A stretch of 64,000 nucleotides of DNA, from positions 17,688,001 through 17,752,000 of the forward strand of contig JAKSXM010000040.1 of the NCBI GenBank assembly GCA_022575985.1. Direction: 5' to 3'. This DNA comes from Anagrus nilaparvatae (taxonomy: Eukaryota > Arthropoda > Insecta > Hymenoptera > Mymaridae). The position numbers were made by a program, and so were the translations under genes. Of this stretch, positions 577 through 52,689 are shown one piece after another. How positions within the stretch are numbered: the first letter of the stretch is position 1; each line of letters begins with the position of its first letter. The notes beneath the pieces are model-generated. The model saw only the letters and a program-made list of their open reading frames with translations, ran no database searches and was not told the origin of the DNA.

Positions 577-2542
577 TTATGGAAGATGCCATGTTGGGGT
601 TGGTATGTCTGATTTTTTGCTGGTGCCTGCTGTTGGATTTTGTTTCACAAAGGTGACTCTGTTATCTCTTGGGAAAATCAGAATTTCTTTCGTTGCTGTG
701 AAGGTTTCATTCGGGTTGCGTGGCGCTTCTTGTGGTTGGTTGCGTGTTAGCGTGTTTGGCCTTATGATGTCCCTGACTGCTGCTGGGATTTGTACTAAAT
801 CTGGTTGCCTGGCTGTATTCTCTGCATCTGTAACTTGTCTAAAACGATTAGTACCCCTACATTCGAGACAATACGCGGACAATATGCTCCATATTAGGAT
901 AGTAATGAAAATTGTGGTAGTGATTATTAAGAGTTTATTGTCTGTGTGTATAATGGTTCTTTTTTGGATATAGTCGTATTCCGATAGCTTTTTTGCTCTT
1001 TGGATTATATATTTTAAATCTACCCCAGTCTCTAGTGATTCAGTTCCCGAGTTATTATTTATACTTGTAGTTTCGTTAATTAGACCGTAAATTTTATCGT
1101 ATACATTTGCTTGCGTTTGGTCTATCATTTTATTAAGGTTTATATATGATTTTGTAAAGACTTCTATTTTTGTTTCGAATTTGACTTCTTTGGCTGCTTT
1201 AAGGACCGCGTTTGAAGTTTTACCAATGCAACCGTCGTCTAGTTTTAAAATTCCTGTGTCTGATAATCGAAAGGATATTGGTGAGTCTTGTTCGCAGCTT
1301 ACATAAATTGATTCATTTTTGTTTGTTGAAAAACCCCAAGCATTTTCTTGAACTAGTTTTATCCAGTGGGTTTGTTCCAATTTTCTTATTTTAATATTGC
1401 AATTTCGTAAATCTGTTTCACCTTGGGTGATTATTCTAATTTCACAGGTTGTTGATGAGCTTATTTCCATAATTGGATTCAAATTTTTACAGATGTATAT
1501 ATCTCTGACGTGTTTGCAGCTATTTAGATTTTCATAATCCAGGGATATGTATGATTGGTTATTTTTGTCTATCGCTATATATTTGAATTCTGGGTAAATA
1601 TATGCGAAAACTTCTAAATTGCCTATTTTTTGCTTAATGGGTAGCGGGTAAAGTTTATACAAATATAAGTGGTAATATTCGAGCAGTGGGACGAATAGTG
1701 CGTATATTAATTGGCTGTTTGATATGTAAACCATTGTTTTTGAGATTCTTGCGATTTCGTCAAGTGAAAATTCGTGGTTTTGTAGGGGAAATTCTGCCCC
1801 TATTCTTGCGTTTTGTATAAGTTCCATTGAATTTTCTAGTTGTTGAAATGGCATAAATTTGGCGTGTATTTCTCCGGTATGGGCCCAGAGTGTTGCCTCA
1901 AGAAGGGTATTTACTTCGCTTTCGAATTCCATTACAGCTGTCCATATTTTTGTGATGATGTTACTCATACGTTGTTGATATTCTACTTTATCCAATCTGG
2001 CGTCTAGGTCGCTTATCTGGTCGGTTATGTTTTCTAGATTCTTCTGAATGTTACTAAAGTTTATGTCTATAATTTGTGTGAGATTAAGTACGAGCTCAGC
2101 TGTTTGTTGTGAGGTGTTATACGCTTTTTCGGCAATTTCTTGTAACAATATTCCGTCTTCTTCGTCTAGAGTTCCGAAAAGGATTTTCTGAATTTTCCCC
2201 ATGAAAGGTAAAACTGCTTCTCGTTTTTCTTTTGTGACGTTATTTTTTCCGAAAGACTTTAGTATTTGGTATAATTCACTAGCTATGTTTTCCAATTTTC
2301 CGTATAGTTCGGTAAATTCTGGTTCGTAGGTACATGGGTTTTTACAGAAAGATTCGGTGACATTTATTGCGTGCCTTAGGGCTGGTGCTGTTTCCTTTAA
2401 GGGTTGTAAGTTTATTCTATTGAAAATTTTCCAATTCGTGGTGGAGATTCTGAGTTGGGCTATCTTTTCATAGATTAGCCCCGGATTTTGCGGTAACGGC
2501 TGTATTTCGATTCCATTGTATGCGCATATACTTGTCAAATCC
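577..2542 (-). CDS. env: Errantivirus-type envelope protein (baculovirus F-like), body exon
   Basis: Intact frame of about 650 codons ending at 577. It resembles the F-like fusion proteins of insect errantiviruses and baculoviruses, which act as type I membrane glycoproteins in entry. Counting from the TTG at 2,536-2,538, a basic cleavage-type site KEKR is near residue 103. It is followed by a hydrophobic fusion-peptide-like stretch and the family hallmark LFGTLDEED at 120-128. A heptad-like region follows (about 145-190), with many N-glycosylation sequons, one membrane span at about 536-555 and a tail of roughly 98 residues. There is no ATG at the start: the frame opens directly after a TTTTAG acceptor, so the start and signal peptide must come from an upstream exon. 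The leader exon ending at 51,738 fits in phase. Inferred to be made from a spliced subgenomic RNA, as known for gypsy env. Confidence 0.88.
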
Positions 2543-2550
2543 CTAAAATT
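2543..2550 (-). promoter_or_regulatory. Splice acceptor of env
   Basis: On the minus strand the bases AATTTTAG end at 2,543 and the env frame follows at once. One base completes a codon left open by a phase-2 donor, and the frame then continues into env. The tract before it is AT-rich rather than strongly pyrimidine-rich. The partner proposed is the GTGAGT donor at 51,732-51,737. Confidence 0.6.
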
Positions 2551-15415: not shown

Positions 15416-15838
15416 TTAATTCTCAACATCTATATCCTCCTCATTTTCATCTTCTATCTCGACCCATTCATCCTCATCTTCCTCATTGTTTCTTCTGTAT
15501 CCTATTTCTTCTCCTGGGCCTCTTTGGACCCAACCTCGTTCATTTCTTTGGTGCAGCTGATTTTCGTCCTCTCGTTCTTCAGCCATTCTTTGATTATCTC
15601 TTGCAACTTCTGCTGCCAAATTTGCTGTTGTTACGGCTAAGGTATTAAAAAATCTAACAGTTCTCCGGTATTGTATGCCTGGAATAACTAGGTCCCCTCC
15701 TCGGACTGTTACCTCCAGTTTTCTAAAAACCCAGGCCACCAATGCTAGGCCTCTACCGTCATTTTTTGCTTGCAAGTGTCTGCAAAGATCTTGTCCCGAT
15801 TGGAACAAATTCCTATTGTTTTCGTTATTTGGATTCAT
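15416..15838 (-). CDS. Unrecognised 140-residue protein with an acidic C-terminus
   Basis: ATG-started intact frame with clearly higher GC and balanced residue use, unlike the chance frames around it. The first ~85 residues look folded, with a Val/Leu/Arg-rich core around VAWVFRKLEVTVRGG. The rest is hydrophilic and ends in a run of Asp/Glu (DEDEWVEIEDENEED). No signal peptide or membrane span is seen. I do not recognise the family. It is sense to gag-pol-env with no intron seen, so it may be an accessory protein of the element. An acidic tail can mimic nucleic acid or bind basic proteins, but no function is claimed. Confidence 0.6.
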   Translation of the reverse strand: MNPNNENNRNLFQSGQDLCRHLQAKNDGRGLALVAWVFRKLEVTVRGGDLVIPGIQYRRTVRFFNTLAVTTANLAAEVARDNQRMAEEREDENQLHQRNERGWVQRGPGEEIGYRRNNEEDEDEWVEIEDENEEDIDVEN

Positions 15839-16189
15839 TTTTTCTTTACTTCTTTTTATAAGAATTATTGATAGTACTGAGTTGAAATGTTAACGTGATC
15901 TGTATAGTCTAGCATGTTTTCGGTTTTCTAAATTCCTCCGGCAAGATAAGGGACCATCTGGTTTTTCTCATTCTTGGTGACCTTATACTGTATTATAAAT
16001 TTTTTCTTTTCATATTATACTGTCGTATCTTATAGAAAAATACGATATTTTTAGTTAGATACTTTGGCTAGGTATGGTTTGAGCAAAGAGAGAAAAAGGA
16101 AAGAAAAAATTTGAATTTTTTTTGCAAACACGAACGTTTTTGCTTGAGAAGGAATTTTAAACATTTTTTATTTATATTTATGGTATTTT

Positions 16190-16714: not shown

Positions 16715-17097
16715 TTTATATATATATATATGTGATTTACTCATATTAAAACATTGTCGCTCGTTTTTTTATATGTGATTCACTTATACTAAAACATTGT
16801 CGCTCGTTTTTTATTATATGTGATTCACTCATACTAATACATTGTCGCTTGTTCTTCTTTATATGTTATTCACCCATACTGATACATTGTCGCTTGTTCT
16901 TTATTATATGTGATTCACTCATACTAATACACTGTCGCTCGTTTTTTATTATATGTTATTCACTTATACTAAAACATTGTCGCTCGTTTTTTATTATATG
17001 TGATTCACTCATACTAATACATTGTCGCTTGTTCTTCTTTATATGTTATTCACCCATACTGATACATTGTCGCTTGTTCTTTATTATATGTGATTCT
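16715..17097 (+). repeat. 45-bp satellite array with 180-bp higher-order unit
   Basis: The motif ATTGTCGCT recurs every 45 bp (about 16,754; 16,799; 16,844; 16,889; 16,934; 16,979; 17,024; 17,069). The 60 bases from 16,801 are identical to those from 16,981, so four 45-bp units have been duplicated as a 180-bp block. Because 45 is a multiple of three, the array stays open in frame for about 85 codons, but this is a consequence of the repeat and not evidence of a gene. Confidence 0.9.
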
Positions 17098-19630: not shown

Positions 19631-22066
19631 ATGAGTTTTGACGAAGATTTTGATAATGCCAATATTTTTATCGAAAATAGGTTAGTTAAATACCTTTCTA
19701 ATGTTAAATTAGAGGATTTGCCTAACTTTATTGATAAACAACTTAAAGGCCATCTGGAGAATCATGTCGCTGTGGTTGTACGTATTTTTCTTTGTTATTT
19801 TTTTTATCTTTAGTCCATTTTAAAAATTTCTAATTTCTCTCACTTTTTTTTTTTAGCTCCGAGGTTGTTATACTCCTGACCCCAATATTAATTTAACTGA
19901 TTGGGTTTCAAAATTGCCTCCCAAATATTTTAGACAGGAGCAGTTTGCTACTGATATTTTCCCTGATCCTGCGACCGCTCCTTTTAAGGTACTGGAGGTT
20001 CCCATACATGATGACAAATCTGATATTATAAAGGACGCTTTTATCGCAAGCTTACAAAATAATCCGACCACTACACCTACATTATCTGAGATTCCTGGGA
20101 TATTGGATAAATTTGTTCGGAGTGGCAAGATTTGGAGGAATATCCGAGATCACCATGACTCTTTTAATGAACATCACTGTTTACAACTCGCTTCTGCTTC
20201 TCTTAATCCCAATATAATCGAAACTTACTTAAACGACTCTCCAGGTACTATTTTTATTCTTATCTTTTCTCTCTTTTTTTTTATAATAAATAAAATAAAT
20301 AAAAAAAATTTCTTTAGGTTTAACCAAACCCATGGTATACGTAAGCCCACATGCATCAATCACTTCGTGTCATTTAGAATTTGCACAGCTTCACTCAGCC
20401 AATTTGGTAATTTTTGGTAAAAAACTCTGGATGGTATTTCCTGATACTGCCAATAGACCTTTTACACATGCCATTAACGATTATAAGCTCTCTTATCCAG
20501 GCTGTAAATTTCGTAAGGTTACCTGTAGTTCCTCTTGTCCCAATCCTTATTGTAATATTACTAAAAAGTCTTCCGATCCTACTTCAACTAAGGTTCCTAA
20601 AAAGAAACCCCTTAAAAAAATTGCTTCCAAAAAAGTTTCCCTTGTTTCTAAAAAATCCTCCCCCAAAAAACTTCCTTCGACCTCTAATTGGCAGGCATGT
20701 AAGAAGGCTTCCAGGGTTTCTACAAGAATCCGGAAGATTCCAGACCTATTCCAACCAGAGACTTCCATGAGAAAGGCTGTTTCCAAAAAACTGCCAGTTA
20801 AGAAAATTCCTGACCTTGCTTCCTGCGAAAACAAACCTGTTTTTTGCAAACGTGGTACTCCATGTGATGGTTGCCGTTGTAAATTTGCTCCTTTCCATGA
20901 ATCCTATATCTTTCCAACGCAAGCATTTCTGGATGAGCATAAGATACCTCGAGCTTTCATACATCAACAAGCTGGTGACCTTGTTATTTTTAATAGTTCC
21001 TGTGCCCATCTTGTACTTAATTGGACAGCGTGCGCAGCAGGCAAGAATTTTATATATATTTTTTGATTAAACATAAAAAAAAATATTATTATTATTATTT
21101 TTATTATTTTTATTATTTTTTTTTTTAGAGGCTGTTAATTTCTTTCCTAGCTACTATAAAGGTCAATTAAGGCAGGAATATACTTGTGCCTGTCCTGTCA
21201 CCGATCGTCATCAACTTGATACAACGGCATACGATAGGTCTCAGCCTGGTCTTGTTTGTCCCGATCCTGACTGTACTCATTTCCCATCTTTTGCAACTCC
21301 AGAGGATTTTAAATATCATCTTCACCGACATAGAAAAGATGCTACAGATTCTCTTTCTACTTTCTCCGCGCCTTCTTCTCCCATTTCAACCAATGGCCTA
21401 GATATTGAGATACCTTTTGATACCTTTTCTCTACCTCATTCACCCTCTCCTAGTCCTACCATTGTTTCCGCTTCCGATGATGACCTTTCTGATTCACCTC
21501 TTACTTTAGCTTCCTTGCCTCTTTCTTCTACTGTTTGCTTAAATATTTCTCCTACTTCTGACTTATTTCCTATTCCCTCGCCTTCAAGTTCACCTAATAT
21601 ATCTCCTTTGGGTTTTGCTCAGTTTCCACCAAATATTAATACTACTTTTCGACCAATTACCCCTTTATCTGACCTACCTTCTACTTATGCCCATTCTTTC
21701 ATTCAAACTCCGTTACCTATCTTACCCTTTCCAGTTTTTAGTCCTATCCCCGAAATTCCTTCTTATTTAGATTTAATTCCTGATACTCCTTCTACCTCGC
21801 GTACTCCTTCACCCTTTATTTCTTCACCTGCTTTACCCAAACCACGCAAACGTCACTCTTATAATCCTCCTAAGACTTGTCCTCTCTGTAAAAAAGTATT
21901 TACCAGTAATGTAGTTGTTACTCGACACATAGAAGACACTCATGGTATCTATGCTGGCCCTGCGCCTTGTCTACAATGCTACATATGTAATAAGACTTTG
22001 AAAAATACGACTACTTTGAGTCGTCATATTCGTGACACACATAATAGACCACTTGTTCCCTATTAA
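19631..22066 (+). CDS. JmjC-domain oxygenase with three C-terminal C2H2 zinc fingers
   Basis: Four coding exons: 19,631-19,777; 19,857-20,244; 20,318-21,040; 21,129-22,066, giving about 731 residues. A TTTTTTTTAG acceptor 10 bases before the ATG implies a 5'UTR intron. JmjC signatures: an HxE pair at His197/Glu199, the GKKLW strand at 212-216, the QxxGDLVIF strand, and a distal His at about 409 followed by N and later NFF. These fit a Fe(II)/2-oxoglutarate enzyme. A basic Lys/Pro-rich insert of over 100 residues splits the JmjC fold and ends in a Cys cluster. The C-terminus has a Ser/Pro-rich linker and C2H2 fingers at about 463-486, 670-691 and 703-724. No JmjN is seen. The third intron is GC-AG (donor G|GCAAGA at 21,041). 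Likely a sequence-guided chromatin demethylase or hydroxylase; substrate unknown. Confidence 0.85.
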
Positions 22067-23799: not shown

Positions 23800-24228
23800 T
23801 TACAGTTCTGTTGTTTGTTGGCTGCTTCCTATTTCAGTTAAATTCGAATTTCCTAATATTTGTCTCTTTTTCCTCTCTAAATTTTCTAATTCTTGGACTC
23901 TTTTTTCGTGATAGTTTTTATGTTCTATCACACACTCTTCCAGTCTTTTTTCTACTATCCTTAGACTAGCTTTTACGTCTTGTAAGGTTTCCCGCAGCTC
24001 TTGTTGCTCCGAGCCCTCCATAATCTTCAGCTGGGCCCTAACTCCTTTTAATATTACAGGAATTTCTTCCTCTTTTCTGTCTATTGATCTTTGGTGGCTT
24101 TGGTATAAGCACCTTATTTTTTCCTTTGTAATCATTTCCTCTATTCTTATTTTTTCCTGTCTCTGTTTTTCATCTTTGAATTCTCTTCTATAGTCTTTAA
24201 TTCTCCTAATTGTGCTTTTTGAGAACAT
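23800..24228 (-). CDS. Unrecognised 142-residue coiled-coil protein
   Basis: ATG-started intact frame, rich in Glu, Lys, Arg and Leu. It is almost entirely predicted helix by eye, with heptad-like spacing from about residue 15 to 125 (for example EKRVQELENLERKKRQIL). A single Cys pair lies at distant positions; no membrane span or signal is seen. Codon content is less A/T-only than the surrounding DNA, which argues for a real gene. It is sense to gag-pol-env, with no intron seen. A structural or dimerising accessory protein is possible; no family is recognised. Confidence 0.55.
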   Translation of the reverse strand: MFSKSTIRRIKDYRREFKDEKQRQEKIRIEEMITKEKIRCLYQSHQRSIDRKEEEIPVILKGVRAQLKIMEGSEQQELRETLQDVKASLRIVEKRLEECVIEHKNYHEKRVQELENLERKKRQILGNSNLTEIGSSQQTTEL

Positions 24229-33534: not shown

Positions 33535-33837
33535 TTACATCCACCCTTTTCTCATATCGGTGTCATACGTATCTTTTAATATTTTTTCTTTTTCTTGTTT
33601 CTCCCAGGATTTTTGAATTTTAACAATTTTCTTTTCAATGTTTATTATAAAAATTGGGTTTTCTTTTTTCTTTTGTAGACACCATTTACATTTTCGATTT
33701 CCAAAAATTTCACGTTTTTTATGACAGGGTTTATTAATTATTTTTCTTTTATTCCAGATTTCAAATAATTTGTCGGTATTGTCTAGTATCTCTTTATATT
33801 CAACTATTTTTCTTGCCTTTTCGTTTGCTTGGTCCAT
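33535..33837 (-). CDS. Unrecognised 100-residue protein with a CH..CxWC motif
   Basis: ATG-started (AAGATGG context), highly charged and Lys-rich. It contains PCHKKREIFGNRKCKWC, which parallels the Cys/His cluster of the ORF just downstream, and a following NPIFIINIE strand that parallels the PIIISDIK strand there. The two may be paralogous domains, or two exons of one gene: a weak GTAAAA donor overlaps the stop, but no convincing acceptor keeps the frame. No family is recognised. Confidence 0.5.
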   Translation of the reverse strand: MDQANEKARKIVEYKEILDNTDKLFEIWNKRKIINKPCHKKREIFGNRKCKWCLQKKKENPIFIINIEKKIVKIQKSWEKQEKEKILKDTYDTDMRKGWM

Positions 33838-34117
33838 CTTATCGTTTTATTTAGTATTCTGATTGTTTGCTGGAACATTTGATATTTATGATTTTTAATC
33901 GTGATGTCGAATATTATACTATTATTTATTATTTTTGTTTTGTCTGGTTTGAGTAAGTTTTATATCCGGTTAAATTGTTATCGTTATTATTTAGAAAGGG
34001 AAAAAAAATATAGGTATTGAATTATTGAATGTTATTGAGTCTAAGTGGTCTGATAACAGAAAGAAGGTGTTTATGTTTTAATATTGTTTAATAATGGCAT
34101 TTTGCGATTGGGGTGGG

Positions 34118-34321: not shown

Positions 34322-35704
34322 ATGGAAAGGTTGGATTTTGATTGTTTTTCTCAAATTTGGAAGCGGTTGGAAATTCCTGATCAGATGTCTTTGGCGTGCG
34401 TTAGTGCTTATTGTAATATTATGTCAGAAACTGCTTGGCAGCGTACAGTTAAATTAGAAGTCTGTTACGGAGGTCAATATACCACTAATGAGGGTAATTA
34501 TCTTTTAGACATTGAGCTTATTCCCTTAGAATCTGTTAATAATCTTTTCCGGCACATGTCTGGCGTGAAAAACGTATATTTAAATGTCATGCTCCCTGAA
34601 GATTTTGCTGTTCAGCAGCATTTGTGTAAGCTGTTAAGCATTACTCTCAAAAATTTTCCACGCTTGATTGACTTATCTTGTACGAATATTATTTTAAATC
34701 GCGATCATATAGGTCTTTTCCATTCACATGTCTTAAATTTATATCATTTTTCTTTTAACCGAATGTCTCCTTGGTTCTACAGGCATTTTCCCGCATTGAT
34801 TTCTACTTTTTATAATTTGCGTGAGCTAAGGTCGTTTAATCTTCAGTTAAATACTGAAGGTGTAGAAACACCTGCTCCATTAAAATTACCAGCTATGCCT
34901 GTAACCTTTTCGAACCTGCTTGTTTATGGCACTATTGCTACCCCTTTTCCGCAGTGTATTGTTTATCCTGAACGCATGGATGAGCTTGGCTACTTATCTA
35001 TGGGACCTGATTTTAATTGCTTAATTTGTTGCAATAATCCCAAGGATAATAATTTAGCTCATATTTTACTTATGACCAACTTAACTGTACTTCGTATCCC
35101 TTATAGTGATATTGATGATGCTGGGCTTCAAAAGATCTGCTTGAGCTTACCTAAAATTGCGCGACTTGACATAAGTGCGTGCTTTAACACTACTCCTGAG
35201 AGTTATCAGTATCTTAAAGAATTGCGTAGCCTGTCATATTTGGCTGTTGCTTATTTGCCTGTACCCTATTTGTGTTTAAAAGATTTAAAATTACGCACCC
35301 TTGATGTGTCATGTAGTTCTCTCGCTAATAATTGTTTATTAAATTTATTGATGGAAATGCCTACTTTGTGCTACGCTATGTATGATACGGATTATATTGG
35401 TTTTCGTAAATATTCTGATGGAAATTTGGAATATTTTCGTAAGGTTCTTGCTCAATTTTCTATTTTCGTGGAACATCTTGATCGGGATATTTATTTGCAT
35501 CTTCAATTAAATCTTTATACTACCTTTGTTCGGGAGTATAATTTAGGCAATTATCCTAATTTAATTCTATGTCATGCGCGTCATATGGGTTCTCCTGTAT
35601 TCTTTTTGCAGTCATATTTTTATTACACTACACTAGTGTTGCCTCATTCTTTTTATTATTATGATTATGTCGTAAATGATAGCGAAGATGAGGATTCAGA
35701 TTAG
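34322..35704 (+). CDS. F-box/LRR-like protein A
   Basis: One intact coding exon, 460 residues, starting ATGGAA just after a splice acceptor. Residues 4-40 fit an F-box in spacing (L-x2-D-C ... IW..L.I.D ... V ... W) and align without gaps to the F-box of the host-like gene at 59.8-60.1 kb. The rest is irregular leucine-rich repeats (for example LTVLRIPYSDIDDAGLQ, then LDIS.C). The tail is Tyr-rich and ends in an acidic DSEDEDSD. F-box proteins bring substrates to SCF ubiquitin ligases through Skp1; the LRR part would choose the substrate. It is a clear paralogue of the gene at 38,506-39,876 (shared VxNLFR, DFAxQQH, LNRDHI and LxISACF). It is antisense to gag-pol-env. Confidence 0.8.
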   Translation: MERLDFDCFSQIWKRLEIPDQMSLACVSAYCNIMSETAWQRTVKLEVCYGGQYTTNEGNYLLDIELIPLESVNNLFRHMSGVKNVYLNVMLPEDFAVQQHLCKLLSITLKNFPRLIDLSCTNIILNRDHIGLFHSHVLNLYHFSFNRMSPWFYRHFPALISTFYNLRELRSFNLQLNTEGVETPAPLKLPAMPVTFSNLLVYGTIATPFPQCIVYPERMDELGYLSMGPDFNCLICCNNPKDNNLAHILLMTNLTVLRIPYSDIDDAGLQKICLSLPKIARLDISACFNTTPESYQYLKELRSLSYLAVAYLPVPYLCLKDLKLRTLDVSCSSLANNCLLNLLMEMPTLCYAMYDTDYIGFRKYSDGNLEYFRKVLAQFSIFVEHLDRDIYLHLQLNLYTTFVREYNLGNYPNLILCHARHMGSPVFFLQSYFYYTTLVLPHSFYYYDYVVNDSEDEDSD

Positions 35705-38418: not shown

Positions 38419-39876
38419 GTGCGTAAAAATACTGATTTAGAAAAAAAAACCCTTATTGTTATTATTTATATTTTTTTTTATGGTATATTTATTTTTATTC
38501 TCAGTATGGATTCGCTTGTTACTGCTGCTTTAACCATTGCTGATTTAGGTTTCGATGAATTTTATTGTATTTGGCGATACTTATCTCTTCGTGATAAATT
38601 TGCTCTGGCTCAAGTAAATGTTCATTTAAATCGTATGAGTTCCGAGTGTTTTTCCATAACTCGTTGTTTGGAATTAATTTATAGGCGTGGTCGTACTCAT
38701 TTACCTGGCTATACGTGTTTATGTATAAATCGGGTTCCAGACTCTGATGTTGAAAATTTATTCCGATATTTGTGTAATATTGAAAAACTGTCATTAAGAT
38801 TTATTTACGATACTGATTTTGCTACCCAACAACATTATTCAAAAATTCTTATTCATGCCCTAAAACATTGTTCCAGTCTTACCACCTTGTTATGTGATAA
38901 CGTAACATTAAATCGTGATCACATCCCTTTGTTGCGCTATCGTGCATCCCTTATTACGGAAGTGTATTTCAGTCGTATGACTCAATATTTTCAAGAGAAT
39001 TTTTTCAGTTTATTACGATTTTTTCAAAATCTCCGTTCTTTTACTCTTGATAGTTTAAGTTCACAGGTGCATGATCTCCGTTTTTATCCATCGATTATTA
39101 TTCTTCCCCCATTTCCTAAAAGTTTAGAGAAATTCCATGTAACGGGCTTATTACAGTCAACCCTCGATTATCTCTTTGTTAATGCTCAGAATATGACTTC
39201 ATTTACTTATTTTCATATTTTTGCTTCTCCATATGCCCTTTTACCTTCGGAACTTCGTGTCCTACATAACATGATTAATCTGGTGACTCTAAAAATTCCT
39301 CATAGTACCATTAGTGACACGGACCTTTTAATAATATGTGATCGAATGACCCATCTCACAACTCTAAACATTAGTGCGTGTTTTCAACTATCACCTCTTG
39401 GTTTTGACACACTCGTGAAGTTACGACACTTGCGGCATTTATCCGTTGCTTTTTTGAAAATTCGTTATAAACATTTAATCTCTTTGTCCCTTGAGACCCT
39501 TGATGTATCTCATTGTCATAATCATTTTCTTCAGATCTTTGGGCTCATTTTAGAGATGCCTACTCTTCAATCTATGATGTTTGAAAGTTCCGATTATCAT
39601 TGCAGGGAATGTACTCGTTATAATCGATTATGTTTGGAAAGTTTGATTCCTGCTTTTTGTAAGGAATGGGAACGTTTAGACAGAGAGCTTTTGTTCTATA
39701 TACCACGAGACAATTTTCATATTGTGGCATATGACTCTCCTTTATTTACTTTAAAGGGTTTTTCGGTATGTCATCCTAATCATTTTGATTCACCAAGCGA
39801 CTTTGTTACTCTTTCTAATTATTATTGTACTCTACCATTTACTTATCCCGCTTCCGATTCTTCTGATTTGGATTAA
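38419..39876 (+). CDS. F-box/LRR-like protein B, with 5'UTR intron
   Basis: An intron runs from 38,419 (AAG|GTGCGT) to 38,504 (TTCTCAG). The start codon is therefore the ATG at 38,506-38,508, not the open GTG upstream, giving 456 residues in one coding exon. The N-terminal 50 residues form an F-box-like helix set (FDEFYCIWRYLSLRDKFALA). LRR-like segments follow (LVTLKIPHSTISDTDL, LNISACFQLSPLG), then an acidic SDSSDLD end. It has the same length, order and motifs as protein A 2.8 kb upstream, so the pair arose by duplication and has since diverged widely. Likely an SCF substrate receptor; target unknown. Confidence 0.8.
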   Translation: MRKNTDLEKKTLIVIIYIFFYGIFIFILSMDSLVTAALTIADLGFDEFYCIWRYLSLRDKFALAQVNVHLNRMSSECFSITRCLELIYRRGRTHLPGYTCLCINRVPDSDVENLFRYLCNIEKLSLRFIYDTDFATQQHYSKILIHALKHCSSLTTLLCDNVTLNRDHIPLLRYRASLITEVYFSRMTQYFQENFFSLLRFFQNLRSFTLDSLSSQVHDLRFYPSIIILPPFPKSLEKFHVTGLLQSTLDYLFVNAQNMTSFTYFHIFASPYALLPSELRVLHNMINLVTLKIPHSTISDTDLLIICDRMTHLTTLNISACFQLSPLGFDTLVKLRHLRHLSVAFLKIRYKHLISLSLETLDVSHCHNHFLQIFGLILEMPTLQSMMFESSDYHCRECTRYNRLCLESLIPAFCKEWERLDRELLFYIPRDNFHIVAYDSPLFTLKGFSVCHPNHFDSPSDFVTLSNYYCTLPFTYPASDSSDLD

Positions 39877-43231: not shown

Positions 43232-43439
43232 CTGAAATATATACGAATTCCTACTTGTATTATTCTACTTTATTGTACTAGGGTCAATGTATTTTATATT
43301 TTAGTCTTAATATATATGTAATTTATTTTTTTTGTTTATTTATTATTTTTGCATACTTTATCAATAAGTTTATTAACAAAATTAAGGCTAATTATTTTAT
43401 ATTATTATTATTTTCTTATTTATTTTTTTTTACTTTCTT

Positions 43440-46400
43440 TTAATACCAGTTTAATTTTGTTGGTTTTTCTATTATATTACCCGGCATTCTTGCAAAATGT
43501 GCGCGTTTTATTAGGTCCATATGCACTACCTTTGCTAGTTCTTCAAAACAAATTTCGACGTTATGACGGTCGTAATCTACCCTTGTTATCTCGCAAGGAC
43601 CTAGGAAGGCTAATTTAACATTTTTTGATTCATTACGGTTATTTATTAGGTATACATACTCCCCTTCCCTGAAGTGGTCTGTATTAATCTTTTTATTGTA
43701 GTAGTCGCGGCTTTTAATTTTTCTTTGGATCGTATTTAATCCCGCTAAGATTTGTAGATGTTGTATATTGTCTACCACTTCCGCTAGGTAGTCATCATAG
43801 ACTCTAACGGTTTCTCGTGGGGGATATTTACTTGGTGTTCTTGCTTTATATCCAAATACCAGCTCAAAACTTGTATATCCGGTAGTCTCTGACCTTGAAG
43901 TGTTAAAACAATGTGCCGCGAGACGAATCCAGTTTGGCCAATCGTTTTTCTCAAGGGCATAGGTCTTTAAATATTCAAGAAGTGGCTTATGCACACGTTC
44001 AATTACCCCATTTGAGGCCGGGTGAAACGCTGTTGTGCGGAATTTCTCAATTTTGAATAATCGGGCAAAACCCTCTAGAATTTTGCTTTGGAAACATGCT
44101 CCCTGATCGGTCAAAATGGCTAATGGTGGGCCAAAAGGCACTATTAAGTAGTCTACTAGTCCTTGGGCAACCGCTAGTGCTCCTGAATCTTTCAGGGGTA
44201 CGGCTATAAAATATTTGGTCAACGTACATATAATTGTTAGTATCCAGAGATAACCCGAACTTGAATTCATCTGGCCATGTAGGTCCATACTGACTAAATC
44301 GAAGGCCCTGCTAGGTGTGTTGGTCAATACCATCCCGAGACGTGTTTTGGGCCTCGAAAATTTCACTTCCTGACATTCAGGGCACGATTTTACTACTTGT
44401 AAAACTTCATTTCTTATTCCTCGCCAATAATGGTTTGCGAGTAATTTTTGTAGTGTTTTTTGGAAGCCACGATGACCTGATAATGCGCCTGCGTGATGTT
44501 CTCTTATCAGAGTATACCTTTTTTCTACTTGCGGTACCGATAAACTGTCGTGATAGAAAGTTGCTATTATTCTTTTATCCGCTAAATAATGGTTAAGTCT
44601 TTCTATATAATATAGATTTTGACTCTCGTTAAATAGATCACGATCTCTAGCTATAGAAAAATTTCTTAATTTTAATCTATCTACTAACTTTGAGAACACT
44701 TTTAATGTTGTGTTTAGTTCTGCTCGTAATAATCTTGCATCTACGTATTGTTTAATAATTAAAATTAGAATTGCTTTCCCTTTATTTTTTAGCACTATTA
44801 CTTCTCCTACTTTCGCTTTATTTGCTATTAATTCGGTTCTCTCAAAGAATTGTTTTTCTAATAAAATCGACAGTGTTTCTGTTGGATAAAAATCTTCTGT
44901 CGCGCATATTACTAGATTTTTAAAATTTAAGAACGGATGACTTTTTGAAATTTTCATACATTTCATGGGTTCTAAATTTTTCTTATCAGGAATTACTTCT
45001 TTAGGTCCCCATGGGGGTTTACGTTTTGGTCGTAGATGATTTTCTTTATCTATTGACTTTTCTTTTTTTATTTCTTGAGATTTTCGGTAATTATCGATTT
45101 CTTTTCGGTCCAAATTAATTACAAGTTCTTTCTTTTGTACTGTTTTACGTTGGTTTTGATATTTTTCGACCTCATTCTTGTCTAATTTAATTTGTAGCTC
45201 TTTATCAATTTTTTGTTTCAATTTTGCCCTTTTTACAATTTTCAATAGAGGAGTATAATGACTTTCACTTAAGTGTAAATGTATAAAATCTGAACTATCA
45301 TTGCCCTTATAATGTATATATGTAATTCTTGTAGCCCTATTTTTATCTTTATTTGAATCGTACATATGTACACATACGTTAACTTTATATTCTTGTGAAA
45401 AAATAAATAATGTATCCGCGTTCCCCCACGCGTTCTCCGTGTTTAATACGTTATACGCTTCCTTTGGATTTTCGCATAACTGTATATACTTACTATATTT
45501 TAAAGAATCTCTCAATTCACGAAGGTTCAAATCACTTTCCATTAATACTAGTAAGCTGTGAAATAAACATTCGCCATTATCATTAATTTTTAAATCTCTT
45601 ATAAAAGTTTCTTTAGGTTCAGCGCACACGTCAGTATGTAAATATCTCACGTGATCGCTGTTAAAACTCGGCACGCGACTGTTTCCGTCTTTATTATTTA
45701 TTTCTCTCTCTTCGAGAGGTATTTCTACTGTATTCTCTGATTCGTTTGAGCCCTCACTAGAACATATATTTTTGTACGTTGCTAAATCGGCTTCGTTTTG
45801 TTTATTATTATTATTTTCACACTTCATTGTATTATTTTTATTATATACTTTTAATTCATCATTTTTATTATTTTCTGTTTCTTGTTTTTCATTTATTTCT
45901 TTAATATATAATTTGGTTTCGATATCTTTATTAGTTATTTTACCTTCAATTTTCACATTAAATTCTCCTTTAAAGTTTTCGTTATTATTATTTCTTAAAT
46001 TACTGTTATAAAATATTTTTTCCATTATATTTTGTGGGCTTATGTTTTTTCTTTCGTTATTAATCTTTATATCCTCTATAATTTTAATTTTGGGCTTTTC
46101 TCTTTTTTGTAGTTCTTGTTGAAAGAACACTGCAGGGGATGTTTTTTCTTTATTAATGGAACTTATGCTATCTGAGATTTCCATTTTTGAGTCTTCTTGA
46201 TTTTGCATTTTTAATTCTAGTAATTGTCTATTATCCATTGGGTCATCTGAGCTATTTGTGACTGAATTTGGTCTCCTTTCGTCTTCTTGATTTAACATTC
46301 TCGGGAGGGAGGGGGATCTTGTGTCTTGTATGACTCTTGGGGACATTTGTGGGTAAACATAATCCATTCCTCTCCTTCTAGGCGGTAGGGGTGGAATTTC

Positions 46401-48866
46401 AGGTCGTATTTTTCTTGGCCTACCGACGGTTCTTTTTAATGGTTGCGCCTCATTTAATATATTTTCGACAAGCTTACGTTTTGCTACTGCTTTTGGCTGT
46501 ATTAATCTTTTGCTTCTTGTAACGACTGTTTTCTTTTTACTCGTCATTTTGGCTTTTTTCGGAATTACATAATCTGAGTCAGAATCTGATTCTTGTGTAA
46601 ATTTAACTTTTTTCTCATTGATTAGTTTTCTTTTTGCCATTGCGATTTTAAATAAACGTATGTAATTATCCGATTCAGATTCCGAGGTATTTTCGAATTC
46701 GCCTTTGTCAGCCATTTCAAATAGTTTGACTCTTGGTTGATCTGGATCTATTTGACTTTCTTTAATAATTGGGTTTCTTGAAAGTGCATCCGCCACTAAA
46801 TTCTCTTTTCCTGGTCGATATATTATTTCAAATTCGTAATTCATCAATTTTGATCTTAAATTGCACGATCGGAAATCTGTTTGTTTTGATTGATGCAAGA
46901 ATTTTAGGGAGTGGGAATCTGTTATGACATAAAATTTCCTACCATACAAATATGGTCTAAATTGTTGTGTAGCAAAAATAATCGCTGCCAATTCTTTATG
47001 ATAACTATCCCATTTGATTTGTGAATTTTTTAGTAATCTTGAGGCGTAGGCTACTACATGTTCTTTTCCTTCGTCGTCTTTTTGTTCCAAAACGGCCCCC
47101 AGGGCGTAATCGCTAGCGTCCGTTACGACCCAGAATTCGCGGTTAAAATTTGGGGATACTAATATTGGCTCTTCTAATAGTTTCTGTTTCAAAATATCGA
47201 ACGCTTTTTGCTGTGCATCGCCCCAAATAAACGGCTCGTTTTTTCTCAGTAAATCTGTCAGTGGTTTTGCTATCTTAGAGAAGCTTTTTACAAATTTTCT
47301 ATAAAAACTGCATAATCCTATGAAAGATTTAACTTTCTTTGGAGTTGTTGGGACGGGAAAATCTCTTACAGCTTTAATTTTTTCCTCACTTGGCTTTAGT
47401 TGTTTATTTCCCACAATATGACCTAAAAAATTAACTTCCCTTCTTAGAAACTTACATTTTTTCGGATCTAGCAGTAATTTTGCTTCTCTGAGCCTTTCTA
47501 GTAGGAGCCGGCACTTTCGCTCATGATCTTGTAAATCGCTTGCGTAAACTATTATATCGTCTAGGTATGCAAAGACTCCTTGTAGGCCTGCTATCACCTT
47601 GTCGATTAGTCGGCTAAAACAAGATGGAGCCGAGGAGATTCCCATCGGCACTTTTCGGTACTGGAAGCTCCCGGCAGAGCAGGAAAATGCCGTATATTTT
47701 TTGCTCTCTTCCGTTAGTTCCACTTGATGGTACGCAAGAACTAAATCTAAAGATGAAAGATAGTACGCATCTCCCAATTGGTCCAAGATTCCGTTCAAAT
47801 CTGCAATTGGGTATGTGTCGCCCTCTAGGATAGAATTTAATTTTCTAAAATCCACTACACATCTCCATTTTACTGGCCCATCGGCCGTTTTCTTTCGAGG
47901 AACAACCCAGACGGGATTAGAATAAGGGCTCCTAGCTGGTTCAATAATGCCCATTTTCAAATGTTCTTGAATTATTTCGTCTAGCGCTTTTTTTGCTTCC
48001 GGCGGCTGCCTATACATTTTACTTTTTATCGGGACATCGCTTGTAAGTTTTATTTCAAGTTTTTGTAACGGTGTGCTTGTAAATTTTCTTCCCTTTAAAT
48101 AAAATCGATCCGCAAAATCGTAAACTAAATGGTCTACTTGATCTTTTTCTTCTTTACTGAGTCCTTCTACATTTACTTCTCTCATTATATTAAATGATAA
48201 CATGTCTATATCTACTTCCATTTCTGAGTCCCAGTAATCTTCTTCTGGATCTTGTCGGATTTCATAGTCTAAAAGATCGACAATTGGAGCCTCTAACTCA
48301 ATAACTTCATTTGAAATATTTGTGCATCTCACGTATGCTTGTCCGTTTATATTTGTCGCGAGAGCGTTTCCGATGATTAAATGTGGATCTAAATCTAATT
48401 GGGGTATATATCCCTCCCTTATATCTAAATTTTTTACGCATAAGTATATGTTCTGGCAAGAGTTGGGTTGAATTAAAAATTTTTCTCTTTGTAAGAATGG
48501 TAAAATAAATTCACCAAAATGTAGTCGCATCCTGCCCAAGTCTATTTTCCCCTCGTATCTTTGTAAATTATCTAGTCCTAATAATGCATCTGCTTCTAAT
48601 AAAAAATTATCGTCTATAACGTGAAATAGGCAGGGTAGATTATTTAATTGTAACATAACGGATCCCTTTGTAAGCGCTTCTTTCTGTGTAATGCCTAAAA
48701 TTCTTACTTGAACTCGTGTATTAACGTATTCTGAATATCGTAGGGCAGATTCTTTGACTAGGCTAATATCAGCTCCGCTATCAATAAAAAAGGTTCCTTT
48801 TCCCCCAATAAGATTTTCACTATTTAATTCGACTACAGGTGGGATTTTCTTTGCACTTGTGAACAT
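43440..48866 (-). CDS. pol: Pro-Pol polyprotein of a Ty3/gypsy errantivirus-like element with an inserted OTU domain
   Basis: Intact 1,808-codon frame from its first ATG; by -1 frameshifting it joins gag about 70 bases earlier (near 48,938). Domains in order: aspartic protease (FIDSGAD near 29); reverse transcriptase with YLDD near 432; RNase H (TDAS near 580); a basic linker with an AT-hook-like GRPRK (near 813) and a long Lys/Asn/Glu-rich stretch; an OTU-type cysteine protease domain (about 1,090-1,210: NGECLFHSL, AWGNADTLF, SHYTPL); integrase with HHCC zinc motif (about 1,455-1,498); catalytic D, D, E near 1,526, 1,585 and 1,620; and a GPY/F-like module (GPCEI near 1,755). Every key catalytic residue is present, so the copy may be active. 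The OTU domain is not part of the usual errantivirus Pol, which is several hundred residues shorter. Confidence 0.96.
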   Translation of the reverse strand: MFTSAKKIPPVVELNSENLIGGKGTFFIDSGADISLVKESALRYSEYVNTRVQVRILGITQKEALTKGSVMLQLNNLPCLFHVIDDNFLLEADALLGLDNLQRYEGKIDLGRMRLHFGEFILPFLQREKFLIQPNSCQNIYLCVKNLDIREGYIPQLDLDPHLIIGNALATNINGQAYVRCTNISNEVIELEAPIVDLLDYEIRQDPEEDYWDSEMEVDIDMLSFNIMREVNVEGLSKEEKDQVDHLVYDFADRFYLKGRKFTSTPLQKLEIKLTSDVPIKSKMYRQPPEAKKALDEIIQEHLKMGIIEPARSPYSNPVWVVPRKKTADGPVKWRCVVDFRKLNSILEGDTYPIADLNGILDQLGDAYYLSSLDLVLAYHQVELTEESKKYTAFSCSAGSFQYRKVPMGISSAPSCFSRLIDKVIAGLQGVFAYLDDIIVYASDLQDHERKCRLLLERLREAKLLLDPKKCKFLRREVNFLGHIVGNKQLKPSEEKIKAVRDFPVPTTPKKVKSFIGLCSFYRKFVKSFSKIAKPLTDLLRKNEPFIWGDAQQKAFDILKQKLLEEPILVSPNFNREFWVVTDASDYALGAVLEQKDDEGKEHVVAYASRLLKNSQIKWDSYHKELAAIIFATQQFRPYLYGRKFYVITDSHSLKFLHQSKQTDFRSCNLRSKLMNYEFEIIYRPGKENLVADALSRNPIIKESQIDPDQPRVKLFEMADKGEFENTSESESDNYIRLFKIAMAKRKLINEKKVKFTQESDSDSDYVIPKKAKMTSKKKTVVTRSKRLIQPKAVAKRKLVENILNEAQPLKRTVGRPRKIRPEIPPLPPRRRGMDYVYPQMSPRVIQDTRSPSLPRMLNQEDERRPNSVTNSSDDPMDNRQLLELKMQNQEDSKMEISDSISSINKEKTSPAVFFQQELQKREKPKIKIIEDIKINNERKNISPQNIMEKIFYNSNLRNNNNENFKGEFNVKIEGKITNKDIETKLYIKEINEKQETENNKNDELKVYNKNNTMKCENNNNKQNEADLATYKNICSSEGSNESENTVEIPLEEREINNKDGNSRVPSFNSDHVRYLHTDVCAEPKETFIRDLKINDNGECLFHSLLVLMESDLNLRELRDSLKYSKYIQLCENPKEAYNVLNTENAWGNADTLFIFSQEYKVNVCVHMYDSNKDKNRATRITYIHYKGNDSSDFIHLHLSESHYTPLLKIVKRAKLKQKIDKELQIKLDKNEVEKYQNQRKTVQKKELVINLDRKEIDNYRKSQEIKKEKSIDKENHLRPKRKPPWGPKEVIPDKKNLEPMKCMKISKSHPFLNFKNLVICATEDFYPTETLSILLEKQFFERTELIANKAKVGEVIVLKNKGKAILILIIKQYVDARLLRAELNTTLKVFSKLVDRLKLRNFSIARDRDLFNESQNLYYIERLNHYLADKRIIATFYHDSLSVPQVEKRYTLIREHHAGALSGHRGFQKTLQKLLANHYWRGIRNEVLQVVKSCPECQEVKFSRPKTRLGMVLTNTPSRAFDLVSMDLHGQMNSSSGYLWILTIICTLTKYFIAVPLKDSGALAVAQGLVDYLIVPFGPPLAILTDQGACFQSKILEGFARLFKIEKFRTTAFHPASNGVIERVHKPLLEYLKTYALEKNDWPNWIRLAAHCFNTSRSETTGYTSFELVFGYKARTPSKYPPRETVRVYDDYLAEVVDNIQHLQILAGLNTIQRKIKSRDYYNKKINTDHFREGEYVYLINNRNESKNVKLAFLGPCEITRVDYDRHNVEICFEELAKVVHMDLIKRAHFARMPGNIIEKPTKLNWY

Positions 48867-48901
48867 AACTTTTGCGGTTGTAGGGATGTTTTGAAAAATA
48901 T

Positions 48902-50944
48902 TTAGCTCGACACCACTCGGCGTCGAGCGGCATTCAAGTTTAAATTCTGTTGATCATTAGTATTTTCGTTTCTCATGTTGGTATTATTATTCCGATTCCC
49001 GTTGTTTATATTTCTCTCTTGGTTAGTATTGTTATATCTTAGCTGATTATTTCTCGGAAAATTATTTGCATTAGTAAAATTACCATTATTGTTGCTACGC
49101 AGCATGCTATTTCTGTTAAAATTGTCGCTGTTATTATAATTTGGTCTATTCTCATTGCTTTGAAAATTATTATTGTTATTTCGATTAAAATTATTTGTGT
49201 TTCTTTCGCGGAAACCGTTTTGATTTGAACCTGAGTTTTGATTTTGATTATTAAAACGATTAAAATTTTGTCTGTTGAACTCGGGGTTCCTATTATTTGT
49301 AAAATTATTACCTCGAAAATTATTATTTCTTTGCCCGCCAAAATTTCCGAATCTACTATTAAAATTTGCTTGGTTATTAAAATTTCTATTATAATTGAAA
49401 CCTGAAAAACGATTTTGCGGATTATAATTATTTCGCGGCCCCATATATCCTTGGTTCGTGTTGTTTTGATAATTTGACCAAAATGGGTACGGGTAAGGTC
49501 GATAATTTTGATTTGTTTGTTTTTGTTCTTGATTTTTCATTTCTTGCATTTTCTCTTCCGTTGGAATGTCTCCTGATTCGATCGCTTTAAATAGTTTTTG
49601 ACAATTTTGAACTTGATGACTCCCTTTGCAGAAAACGCATTCTATTTTTGCTGCTATTGCGGTCTTAACGTTTGCCGTCGCTGAGGCTAAAAGAGCCCAA
49701 AGATTTCCTAAATCGGTGTTTTGAAAATTATTCGAATCTGAATCAAAATTATTATTTCTCATTTGTGGATCAACAGTGTGTAGAGTTGCAATATTTTTAT
49801 TAGGTTTTGCAGCACAATTTTCGTGTCTTTGGAGTACCTTACTCCTGCCTTCCAAATTCACTGCAATATTTGCGGCTTCCCTCAATGTGGTCGGCTTTTT
49901 GGCCGATACCCTATATTCCGGTGGGTCCCTTAATCCGTATAGAAAACATTCTAACGATTCTTGTTTTGTTCTTGTTTTTTGGTATTCTTTTTCCCCTTGT
50001 CTCATACTAACCGAAGAGTCGTATAGGGACAAAAGTCTTTGTTCTAACGTTTGAACTCGTAGTGCATAGTCGGCTACGGGTTCATCTTCCTCTTGTTCAA
50101 CCCTTCTAAGTTCTAACCTGATAGTATCTGCATCTTGTATACCTCCGAACGTTAATTTAAGATCCTGCAATAACTGTTCAATAGAGTCATATCCTGGTGC
50201 CGTACCTCCATAAGCTAGTTGGGCTCGTCCCTTTAGTTTTGTGGAAATCGTGTTTAAGATCCACTTTTCACTGTTTGGTCCGTAAGTAGTTAAAATATCC
50301 CGTATAACTTTCGCAAATGCGCTTAAGGTTTCTGGACGGCCATCATAATTTGGGATTGTTGTTAGGGCTGCATTTAGCGGTATGTTTCCATATGGGATTC
50401 CCGATCCTTGGGTGTACATAACCCTTCGTTCGCGTGGTTCTCTGTGGTTATTCATTTGTATATTTTCGGTGGGAAAACGTCTTATTTCAACCATAGGTTC
50501 ATTATTGATAAAAAATTGCGGCTCGTCTTGTTCCTCAATTTCATCTAATACCGGTTCCCTTAACAGTCTTCTTCTTACAGGCGGTCTAATAAACGGCACG
50601 CGATATCTAACGTTATTTTGTATATCTGCTTCCTCAGGTGATTCTGTCCGGTATTCGGGGTTTTCTGTATTGTTTAAATCGTTAGGTAAAACTGGACGAG
50701 GTAGCAAAACGTCATTCTGACCAAGTTGTGCCCTATATCTTTCTAACTCGCTAACCAGGATATCGTTTTGTTCCTGCATTCTATGTACCTCACTAAGGGT
50801 TATTGTCCTGTTAGGATTTTGTGTACTATTTTCCCCGGCTGACATTCTTCTAAATTGTTCTGTTATATGTTCTATGTTACCGTTATTAGTGCTGCTTATA
50901 TTTGGAATATTTCTTTGTGTAACTTGTTCGTTTTCGTCTCCCAT
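48902..50944 (-). CDS. gag: Gag polyprotein
   Basis: Intact 680-codon frame. The first ~180 residues are hydrophilic and Pro/Glu/Arg-rich. A capsid-like region of helices follows (about 190-395, with the retroviral-Gag-type pattern PVADYALRVQTLEQRL). A single zinc knuckle near 432-445 has spacing C-x2-C-x3-H-x4-C, one residue shorter than the common form. The last 200 residues are extremely Asn/Arg/Phe-rich, typical of RNA-binding nucleocapsid tails. It forms the particle and packages RNA. It ends 36 bases after a slippery heptamer that feeds the pol frame. Confidence 0.95.
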   Translation of the reverse strand: MGDENEQVTQRNIPNISSTNNGNIEHITEQFRRMSAGENSTQNPNRTITLSEVHRMQEQNDILVSELERYRAQLGQNDVLLPRPVLPNDLNNTENPEYRTESPEEADIQNNVRYRVPFIRPPVRRRLLREPVLDEIEEQDEPQFFINNEPMVEIRRFPTENIQMNNHREPRERRVMYTQGSGIPYGNIPLNAALTTIPNYDGRPETLSAFAKVIRDILTTYGPNSEKWILNTISTKLKGRAQLAYGGTAPGYDSIEQLLQDLKLTFGGIQDADTIRLELRRVEQEEDEPVADYALRVQTLEQRLLSLYDSSVSMRQGEKEYQKTRTKQESLECFLYGLRDPPEYRVSAKKPTTLREAANIAVNLEGRSKVLQRHENCAAKPNKNIATLHTVDPQMRNNNFDSDSNNFQNTDLGNLWALLASATANVKTAIAAKIECVFCKGSHQVQNCQKLFKAIESGDIPTEEKMQEMKNQEQKQTNQNYRPYPYPFWSNYQNNTNQGYMGPRNNYNPQNRFSGFNYNRNFNNQANFNSRFGNFGGQRNNNFRGNNFTNNRNPEFNRQNFNRFNNQNQNSGSNQNGFRERNTNNFNRNNNNNFQSNENRPNYNNSDNFNRNSMLRSNNNGNFTNANNFPRNNQLRYNNTNQERNINNGNRNNNTNMRNENTNDQQNLNLNAARRRVVSS
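48905..48944 (-). promoter_or_regulatory. -1 programmed ribosomal frameshift signal (gag-pol)
   Basis: In the gag frame the codons T-TTA-AAC form the classical slippery heptamer TTTAAAC (48,938-48,944). After a 9-base spacer comes a hairpin at 48,905-48,928: ten base pairs (one G-T) closed by a four-base GAGT loop. It ends directly against the gag TAA. The -1 frame is open from the heptamer through the gag stop into pol. All three parts of a textbook signal are present at standard spacing. Confidence 0.88.
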
Positions 50945-51731: not shown

Positions 51732-51737
51732 ACTCAC
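51732..51737 (-). promoter_or_regulatory. Splice donor in the leader, proposed for env RNA
   Basis: GTGAGT, a perfect 5' splice consensus, begins at 51,737. The exon before it stops in phase 2. The TGA that ends the leader ORF (51,736-51,734) lies inside the donor, so splicing removes the stop. The phase fits the env acceptor at 2,543. Confidence 0.65.
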
Positions 51738-52195
51738 AGTACTGCAACGATGAAAATCCAGTTTCCTGACATTTTCTGTCGTTTGGATGACTTCGGTACT
51801 GCTTGGCTCTCTCGATCTCTGGATACCGCTGGTCCTGTTGACTGAACTCCAATGATATTGATTTTGCGTCTTGATCCCTTTTTGTTCTTGTAGAATAATT
51901 TCCCGTAGAGTGGTAAAATCCTTGTTTGGGCGCCTGAATGTATACGATGTTCTTTCCTTCTATGTAAGATTTTGGTATTTATCTGGATGTCCTTTTTTTT
52001 TTTTAAATTATTGATTTTTCTCAAAATCTCTTTGCTGCTCGCAAAAAAAATTTCCAATTTTTTTTTATGTTGATTATCTATTCCTGACACCTCCGAATAT
52101 CCCACCGGAGCGTCCAATTTGTTGTGTTTGGATGCGAATAAACACAGATAAATGAGGATGTTCGTATTCGGGTTTAGCCTGTTGGCTAAACTCAT
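51734..52195 (-). CDS. Leader ORF running from the LTR through the primer-binding site; carries the proposed env signal exon
   Basis: The frame opens with an ATG inside the LTR (52,193-52,195), reads through the primer-binding site, and stays open for 153 codons, mostly Lys/Arg-rich. A second in-frame ATG at 51,770-51,772 starts a short hydrophobic stretch that ends at the donor. In the spliced RNA this stretch would be the signal peptide of Env, either alone or after a long basic leader as in some retroviruses. Unspliced RNA ends this ORF at the donor and leaves gag to start at 50,944. Confidence 0.5.
   Translation of the reverse strand: MSLANRLNPNTNILIYLCLFASKHNKLDAPVGYSEVSGIDNQHKKKLEIFFASSKEILRKINNLKKKKDIQINTKILHRRKEHRIHSGAQTRILPLYGKLFYKNKKGSRRKINIIGVQSTGPAVSRDRESQAVPKSSKRQKMSGNWIFIVAVL
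52099..52116 (-). promoter_or_regulatory. Primer-binding site
   Basis: Minus-strand TGGACGCTCCGGTGGGAT begins with TGG, complementary to a tRNA CCA end, and directly follows the presumed LTR end. The last bases resemble the T-arm complement of a tRNA (GTGGGAT). I could not assign the tRNA. Confidence 0.6.
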
Positions 52196-52612: not shown

Positions 52613-52689
52613 TTTAATTATAATATCATATTATTTTATTTCTAATAAATCTGTCTAGACGTAATTCTTAGTATTTTATATTTAATCAA

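Follow-up and report, generated by a model that had tools for sequence, protein, structure and literature searches.

Organization of the locus

We analyzed a 64,000-nt stretch of the Anagrus nilaparvatae genome (C79:17688001-17752000, hereafter the window) and searched the 393-contig, 488.7-Mb assembly from which it comes. C-numbers denote contigs of this assembly, and L-numbers denote fetched genomic stretches or copies. The window carries gag and pol genes of a long terminal repeat (LTR) retroelement and, 40.9 kb beyond the end of pol, an env gene on the same strand (Table 1). An initial annotation of the window had proposed that these genes belong to one errantivirus-like element of more than 51 kb, with env expressed through a splice that joins a leader exon upstream of gag to env.

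The pol product gave Pfam matches to RVT_1, RNase H and integrase (IN), together with a protease (PR) match below the cut-off (E=0.0018). Its open frame overlaps the end of gag, in another frame. The env gene (577-2538, minus strand) matched Baculo_F (PF12259, E=1.2e-43) within an open frame at 577-2571. As had been annotated, env lacks an ATG at its beginning and opens directly after an AG (2544-2543), with no methionine before residue 124 of the open frame. One other public contig holds a 78%-identical relative of env, and a search for env relatives in viral contigs gave 11 pattern matches, none of which was confirmed.

To the left of the window, we examined a further 10 kb (L009) and found an LTR matching that of the gag-pol end over its whole length, 2.8 kb beyond the window edge. 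A polypurine tract (PPT), AGAGGGGGAGG, directly precedes this 3' LTR, and the target-site duplication (TSD) TTAG lies outside both LTRs. A putative primer-binding site (PBS), called from sequence only, follows the 5' LTR. The window copy is thus one LTR element of 56,137 bp (C79:17684571-17740707), in agreement with the annotated minimum of 51 kb. A nested insertion between env and the 3' LTR accounts for about 2.4 kb of this length, so the element proper measures about 53.7 kb. The previously annotated LTR was found, and its limits (52,117-52,612) are corrected to 52,120-52,707. The gene order PR-RT-RNase H-IN (RT, reverse transcriptase; the PR match being below cut-off) with a separate gag, and an LTR pair with a PBS (by sequence), PPT and TSD, are those of Ty3/Metaviridae elements. 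Because both LTRs are identical, they speak for a recent insertion. A plasmid collection gave no match to the 5' LTR and its flank (window 52000-53700).

Table 1. Features of the window copy. Positions are window coordinates unless another stretch is named.
Feature	Position	Strand	Remarks
5' LTR	52120..52707	-	588 bp, TG...CA ends
3' LTR	L009:6571-7158 (C79:17684571-17685158; window coordinate -3429 to -2842)		588/588 identical to 5' LTR
TSD TTAG	52708..52711 (5' end of element); partner L009:6567-6570, beyond window		sequence outside both LTRs
Putative PBS	52099..52116	-	3 nt past 5' LTR; similar sequence after the LTR in families B and C
Proposed env first exon, coding part	51738..51772	-	35 nt from ATG (11 codons + 2 nt), phase 2, hydrophobic
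Proposed donor GTGAGT	51732..51737	-	present in 8/8 copies compared
gag	48902..50944	-	680 aa, one CCHC-type motif, weak PNMA match
pol	43440..48866	-	1808 aa: protease-like, RT, RNase H, insert, integrase
pol insert between RNase H and IN	44700..45590	-	OTU-like, then macrodomain-like stretch, both weak
Leucine-rich repeat (LRR) gene	38419..39876	+	F-box-like N-terminus by eye; opposite strand to gag-pol-env
Second LRR gene	34322..35704	+	31% identical to LRR gene at 38419-39876
Open frame, 392 aa	32257..33435	-	no convincing family
C2H2 zinc-finger open frame	21077..22066	+	adjoins JmjC exons; 21515-22066 75% identical in A2
JmjC gene	19857..21066	+	probably two or more exons (judged from frames)
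Proposed acceptor AG of env	2543..2544	-	directly before env frame
env main exon	577..2542	-	Baculo_F; no own start codon in window copy
Nested insertion, right-hand part	1..247; rest L009:7851-10000		about 2.4 kb, inverted ends

The genes between gag-pol and env look host-like and the 64-kb window holds no second LTR, which could suggest two unrelated insertions side by side, namely a gag-pol element without its 3' part and a separate env remnant. However, identical LTRs and a TSD enclose both gag-pol and env, and the same pairing and order recur at other loci with TSDs of their own (see below). Barring an assembly error at every one of these loci, LTR identity, the PPT and distinct TSDs refute this explanation, and we give it next to no weight.

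Sister copies in the genome

We grouped the related elements into families A to E, the window copy being in family A. All genome-wide totals are lower bounds, as only the best candidates were scored. The genome contains at least 69 matches to gag and at least 75 to env. Two long sister copies, A2 (C79:5432126-5483937, 51,812 bp, TSD ACGG) and A3 (C1:1128709-1191711, 63,003 bp, TSD CAAT), have gag, env and both LTRs in the same layout as the window copy. Env of A2 is 99.6% identical to that of the window at the DNA level, and the two LTR parts compared are 98.8 and 99.1% alike. For A3, the env protein is 97% identical, the LTR parts are 97.4 and 99.4% alike, and gag and env lie 54.7 kb apart. 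The nested insertion of the window copy is missing in A2.

The interiors were compared in fetched pieces. Window 34.8-44.8 kb matched A2 at 97.5%, 36.0-45.0 kb matched A3 at 95.6%, and 18.7-22.2 kb matched A2 at 94.9%. In gag, pol, env and 34.8-45 kb, the fetched A2 and A3 pieces are 95-99.6% like the window. Since the fetched interior pieces match in A2 and A3, the interior is, on these alignments, part of the element, with portions that appear to change faster or by exchange. No LTR was found between pol and env in the fetched A2 and A3 pieces, which cover part of the interior, and no sister of 8-9 kb was found among the four family-A copies with located or estimated ends (48.9-63.0 kb). The initial annotation had named either finding as one that would refute its reading.

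We also compared substitutions between copies. The ratio of replacement to silent change (dN/dS) was 0.05-0.20 for gag, 0.09-0.58 for pol where both change types occur, and 0.11 for env between the window and A3 (49 silent and 20 replacement changes). By these ratios, the coding genes change mainly silently.

The fourth copy, on C347, is about 48.9 kb long (ends estimated from L007 and L027), and its env protein is identical to that of the window. It is in a group (L004-L007) that lacks the region corresponding to window 48216-46230, which codes for RT and RNase H. The frame continues across the gap in both translated members of this group, and integrase downstream of the gap was not found in L014, its sole informative copy. 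Family-A copies without RT and RNase H include L004-L007 and L014-L017, at least one of which (C347) carries env. Such giant copies would need help in trans. In addition, a 45-bp tandem repeat array lies at window 16727-17096, and the neighboring blocks at 16.2-18.9 kb recur in L014-L017.

Diverged families and RT-env spacing

Outside family A, complete elements of 22-36 kb were found in three families that are more distant from the window copy. Family B is represented by copies of 26.6 kb (C1, TSD TAAT) and 32.6 kb (C196, TSD TATA), with LTRs of about 508 bp that are identical within each copy. Its identity to the window is 57-58% in gag, 65-66% in RT and 43-44% in env. The family C copy is 22.1 kb (C317, TSD ACGA) with identical LTRs of 592 bp, and shows 59-60% identity in gag, 62% in RT and 44% in env. 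The family E copy is 35.6 kb (C62, TSD ATGG), its LTRs of about 0.9 kb are 99.9% alike, and its identity to the window is 53% in RT and 30% in env. The LTR ends of B and E were set by eye at TG...CA.

Several copies lie on shared contigs, for example C79 and C373, as would fit segmental duplication of one odd locus in place of retrotransposition. However, in the seven copies for which both ends were examined, the 4-bp TSD differs from copy to copy, and the window LTRs, identical to each other, are yet 0.7% different from the 3' LTR of A2. On LTR identity, the PPT and distinct TSDs, we reject duplication as the source of the copies and consider it extremely improbable.

To pair genes across the genome, we used all 97 RT matches and 60 of the 75 env matches (the other 15, mostly fragments, were dropped). 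A same-strand env lies within 80 kb downstream in 30 of the 97 RT matches. Grouped by RT identity to the window, the numbers are 3/13 at 79% or more, 7/11 at 58-66%, 20/39 at 50-56% and 0/34 at 43-46%. Many of the 34 most distant matches (e.g. C79:4747088) have long open pol frames. The spacing from RT to env is nearly constant in subsets, with 20.6-22.2 kb at five loci and 26.1-26.5 kb at five loci. Large size looks like a trait of the lineage, with family A as its extreme.

Candidate splice from the leader to env

The GTGAGT donor and the 49,195-nt length of the candidate intron (51,737 to 2,543) hold as annotated. For the exon before the donor, the earlier description also holds in its phase 2 and its hydrophobic run with an ATG, and its extent is refined: the coding part is better read from the ATG at 51,772 than as the longer frame from 52,195. 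Upstream A/T runs within the longer frame differ in length among copies. The 35 nt from this ATG to the donor are identical in 8/8 family-A copies, window included. This identity says little because the leader as a whole is 97% identical on average, most of it being equally conserved.

We then compared the families. In both copies of family B and in family C, a leader donor (GTAAGT or GTAAGC) follows 35 nt after an ATG; C has two ATGs in frame, and its distance is measured from the second. In family E, a distance of 35 nt was sought first and was not found; an ATG 32 nt before GTAAGA was the sole candidate in a wider scan. In B, C and E, the first-exon frames contain no stop, are hydrophobic towards the donor and finish in phase 2. 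The env genes of A, B, C and E start at an AG followed by one codon-completing base, so that the phase fits (phases were read by eye); in A, B and C, an in-frame stop precedes the acceptor. At env identities of 30-44%, little is expected to persist by chance, and we take this shared exon layout to be meaningful.

As a control, we shuffled the leaders with dinucleotide composition preserved. A GTRAG preceded at 32 or 35 nt by an ATG, with the frame between them open and in phase 2, appeared in 0.8% (A), 1.1% (B), 1.8% (C) and 1.7% (E) of shuffles, or in 0.15-0.45% when the hydrophobic condition was added. These tests are not independent, since both lengths were picked with the families already in view and the families are related to one another. 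The splice layout had been called persuasive in the initial annotation, and its recurrence in B, C and E, both in the leader exon and in the acceptor phase, agrees with that view. This comparison of sequences across families thus supports a candidate splice from the leader to env, with doubt left by sister A3 and family D (see below).

Opposite-strand genes in the interior

The region between pol and env contains genes on the strand opposite to gag-pol-env (Table 1). The LRR gene at 38419-39876 has at least 88 matches in the genome, all of which were used in the RT-anchored count. An RT match lies within 45 kb for 57 of them, an env match alone for 11 and neither for 20. Among the 57, the LRR match is downstream of the nearest RT and on the opposite strand in 56, and upstream on the same strand in one. 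An opposite-strand LRR match lies between RT and env in 22 of the 30 RT-env pairs. In a first count anchored on env (85 of the 88 LRR matches used), 35 of 60 env matches had an LRR match within 45 kb, where about 0.9 would be expected by chance. The LRR match was upstream in 29 of these 35 and downstream in 6, and on the opposite strand in 29 and on the same strand in 6.

A public-contig protein is 74% identical to the product of the LRR gene at 38419-39876 over 97%. When 12 LRR members were scanned, 10 had LRR-type Pfam matches, all below curated cut-offs, and none of the 12 had an F-box match in Pfam. A structure model (predicted local distance difference test score, pLDDT, 65) matched LRR proteins including COI1, TIR1, SKP2, FBXL17 and NLRs, with 20 structure matches at E<=0.001 and template modeling (TM) scores by query of 0.23-0.43. 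On this model, the cargo protein is predicted to have an LRR fold. Another LRR gene, at 58776-59834 outside the element, matched the inside gene weakly (E=0.011) and was rejected as a member of the same family.

The JmjC protein is 99% identical in A2, and an opposite-strand JmjC gene is also present in copies of families B, C and D. We used 92 of 116 JmjC matches. JmjC lies between RT and env on the opposite strand in 15/30 RT-env pairs and on the same strand in 0/30; it was not found there in family E or in two C47 pairs. An RT lies within 45 kb of 36 matches, 32 of which are downstream of it and oppositely oriented; the other 56 of the 92 have no RT nearby. The loci compared for JmjC were window 19857-21066, C1:11107445, C196:19711528, C274:33767 and C373:2992345. 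Between families A and B, JmjC is 88-89% identical, compared with 66% for RT and 43-44% for env, which points to exchange between families or to unusual constraint on the sequence. GC content is 37% over window 20-22 kb and about 24% beside it.

The remaining features are on the sense strand. Within the pol insert, the OTU-like stretch scored E=0.087 in Pfam and the macrodomain-like stretch (OARD1) E=0.0043; a fold model of this region from a single sequence had a pLDDT of 39 and was discarded. A ubiquitin hydrolase domain (PF00443) occurs in two distant pols (P0017 and P0018), in P0017 between protease and RT. Besides the 392-aa frame of Table 1, open frames of 103-157 aa with no convincing family lie at 15416-15889, 23800-24234 and 33535-33846 (minus strand). 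The frames at 32257-33435 and 33535-33846 have a weakly similar C-terminal stretch in common (E=0.023). Beside the insertion site, at window 52721-55392 (minus strand), are coding pieces of acetyl-CoA carboxylase and UFL1 in separate frames.

Weighing the readings

Taken together, the gag-pol block and env are most probably the two ends of one Ty3-type, env-bearing element of 56.1 kb, whose env would be made by a splice from the leader; we put the probability of this reading at roughly 0.84.

A number of observations weigh against it. No env was found within 80 kb downstream of 67 of the 97 RT matches, and in a control, 17/97 RT matches had an env within 80 kb in some other arrangement, mostly on element-rich contigs. 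Spacings of 25.7, 28.5, 31.4, 31.5, 32.8 and 44.2 kb also occur in the same env groups as the constant ones, and two RT-env spacings, 4.0 and 10.5 kb, are near normal (C373:1780520 and C196:12364335). Within family A, window 7.6-16.7 kb is only 67-87% identical to A3 in the pieces compared, and some gag-bearing copies have no env match; one of these, L003, about 116 kb from the window gag, has gag, RT, LRR and JmjC matches. A decayed env copy, L029, gave a dN/dS of 1.29 in its N-terminal part. For the LRR protein, the F-box region of the model is of low confidence and short-term constraint is weak, with dN/dS from 0.24 to 1.86 on few changes. As for the splice, the first scan of family C missed the preferred donor and gave another, three codons after an ATG. 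In A3 (L028), the acceptor is preceded at a distance of a few codons by an in-frame methionine within an open stretch, from which env of this copy could in principle start unspliced. For family D (L059, C47), the open frame of env extends further upstream and likewise contains an in-frame methionine; this family neither supports nor refutes the splice. The pairs at C373:1780520 and C196:12364335 are possible normal-sized relatives.

These upstream methionines would also fit a single giant element whose env is expressed from an internal promoter, a nearer first exon or its own ATG, with the leader donor serving another transcript or none. An intron of 49 kb is long for a retroelement, and the opposite-strand genes of the interior need promoters of their own. 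Nevertheless, the length and phase of the leader exon are kept in A, B and C, and nearly so in E, despite env identities of 30-44%, where shuffles expect such a layout in 0.8-1.8%. We therefore regard expression without the leader splice as unlikely.

For the favored reading of a spliced giant element, we infer the following mechanism. A full-length RNA of about 55 kb would serve both gag-pol translation and reverse transcription. Part of this RNA would lose about 49.2 kb by splicing of the 51,737 donor to the 2,543 acceptor, and the short leader exon would supply the ATG and the start of the Env signal peptide. The opposite-strand genes may be transcribed from their own promoters and act in the element's favor against the host: the LRR protein might be a ubiquitin-ligase adaptor, and JmjC might work on chromatin. 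In Pol, the OTU- and macrodomain-like stretches may counter ubiquitin and ADP-ribose marks.

Comparison with known elements

LTRs of the gypsy group typically have AGT...AYT ends and YRYR targets. Here the ends are TG...CA and the TSDs are TTAG, ACGG, CAAT, TAAT, TATA, ACGA and ATGG, which differs from this general signature. The description "errantivirus-like" thus fits in layout and in the F-type env (Baculo_F), a feature of Errantivirus, and does not fit in LTR ends and targets.

Insect errantiviruses (ZAM, Beagle and other subclades) are described as having a Ty3-type gag-pol with an F-type env as third gene, and their env has been proposed to be spliced to a short exon that lies upstream of gag and codes for a peptide (PMC12992720). 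The element studied here shares the gag-pol type and the env type with that description, and its candidate leader splice would be of the same kind. It differs in being several times larger, in its TG...CA LTRs, in the opposite-strand LRR and JmjC genes, and in the OTU-/macrodomain-like insert of Pol.

The planarian Burro elements, giant Ty3-type elements of more than 30 kb in total with up to 25 kb internally, held the size record in 2019 (PMC6431247). As described there, Burro likewise has env homology and extra domains, some of them ubiquitin-related. In Burro, env is in frame between gag and pol, whereas here it is separate and 41 kb 3' of pol; about 55 kb lie between the 588-bp LTRs here, compared with up to 25 kb in Burro (PMC6431247). 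Like large retrotransposon derivatives, some family-A copies lack RT and RNase H and would depend on help in trans, whereas the window copy retains frames for gag, pol and env (PMC6431247).

Antisense frames are already known in the plant LTR elements Retand, Grande and RIRE2 (PMC11963269). By that account, Retand has 2.9-6.6 kb between pol and the 3' LTR, an antisense TRP28 frame and no recognizable env; the corresponding region here measures tens of kb and includes LRR and JmjC genes and env. A TRP28 frame of the Retand type was not among the antisense genes scanned here (LRR, JmjC and C2H2). A literature search of titles and abstracts, with subscription papers mostly outside its scope, found no LTR element larger than Burro. 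If the reading of whole-length RNA genomes given below is right, this would to our knowledge be the largest LTR retroelement.

Implications

The families may represent a giant ambisense env-bearing lineage, with RNA genomes of 22 to more than 60 kb that are transcribed, packaged and reverse transcribed whole. In this lineage, Env would be made by removing an intron of about 49 kb in the window copy and about 57 kb in A3 (by coordinates), and the LRR/F-box-like, JmjC, OTU and macrodomain components would form a counter-defense set. This broader picture is tentative, and we hold it somewhat less likely to be right than wrong.

LTR-element scans usually cap the LTR-to-LTR distance at 15-25 kb. 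Scans with such a cap would miss this element and list its gag-pol and env as two separate remnants. Insertions of 52-63 kb, bounded by TSDs and by LTRs that are nearly identical, show that at least one lineage reaches such a size, and did so recently; if the broader picture is true, the size is well beyond that given for Burro (>30 kb; PMC6431247). The lineage allows tests of how so long an RNA is packaged and copied, how a 49-kb intron is spliced at a suitable rate, and what benefit the opposite-strand genes bring to the element.

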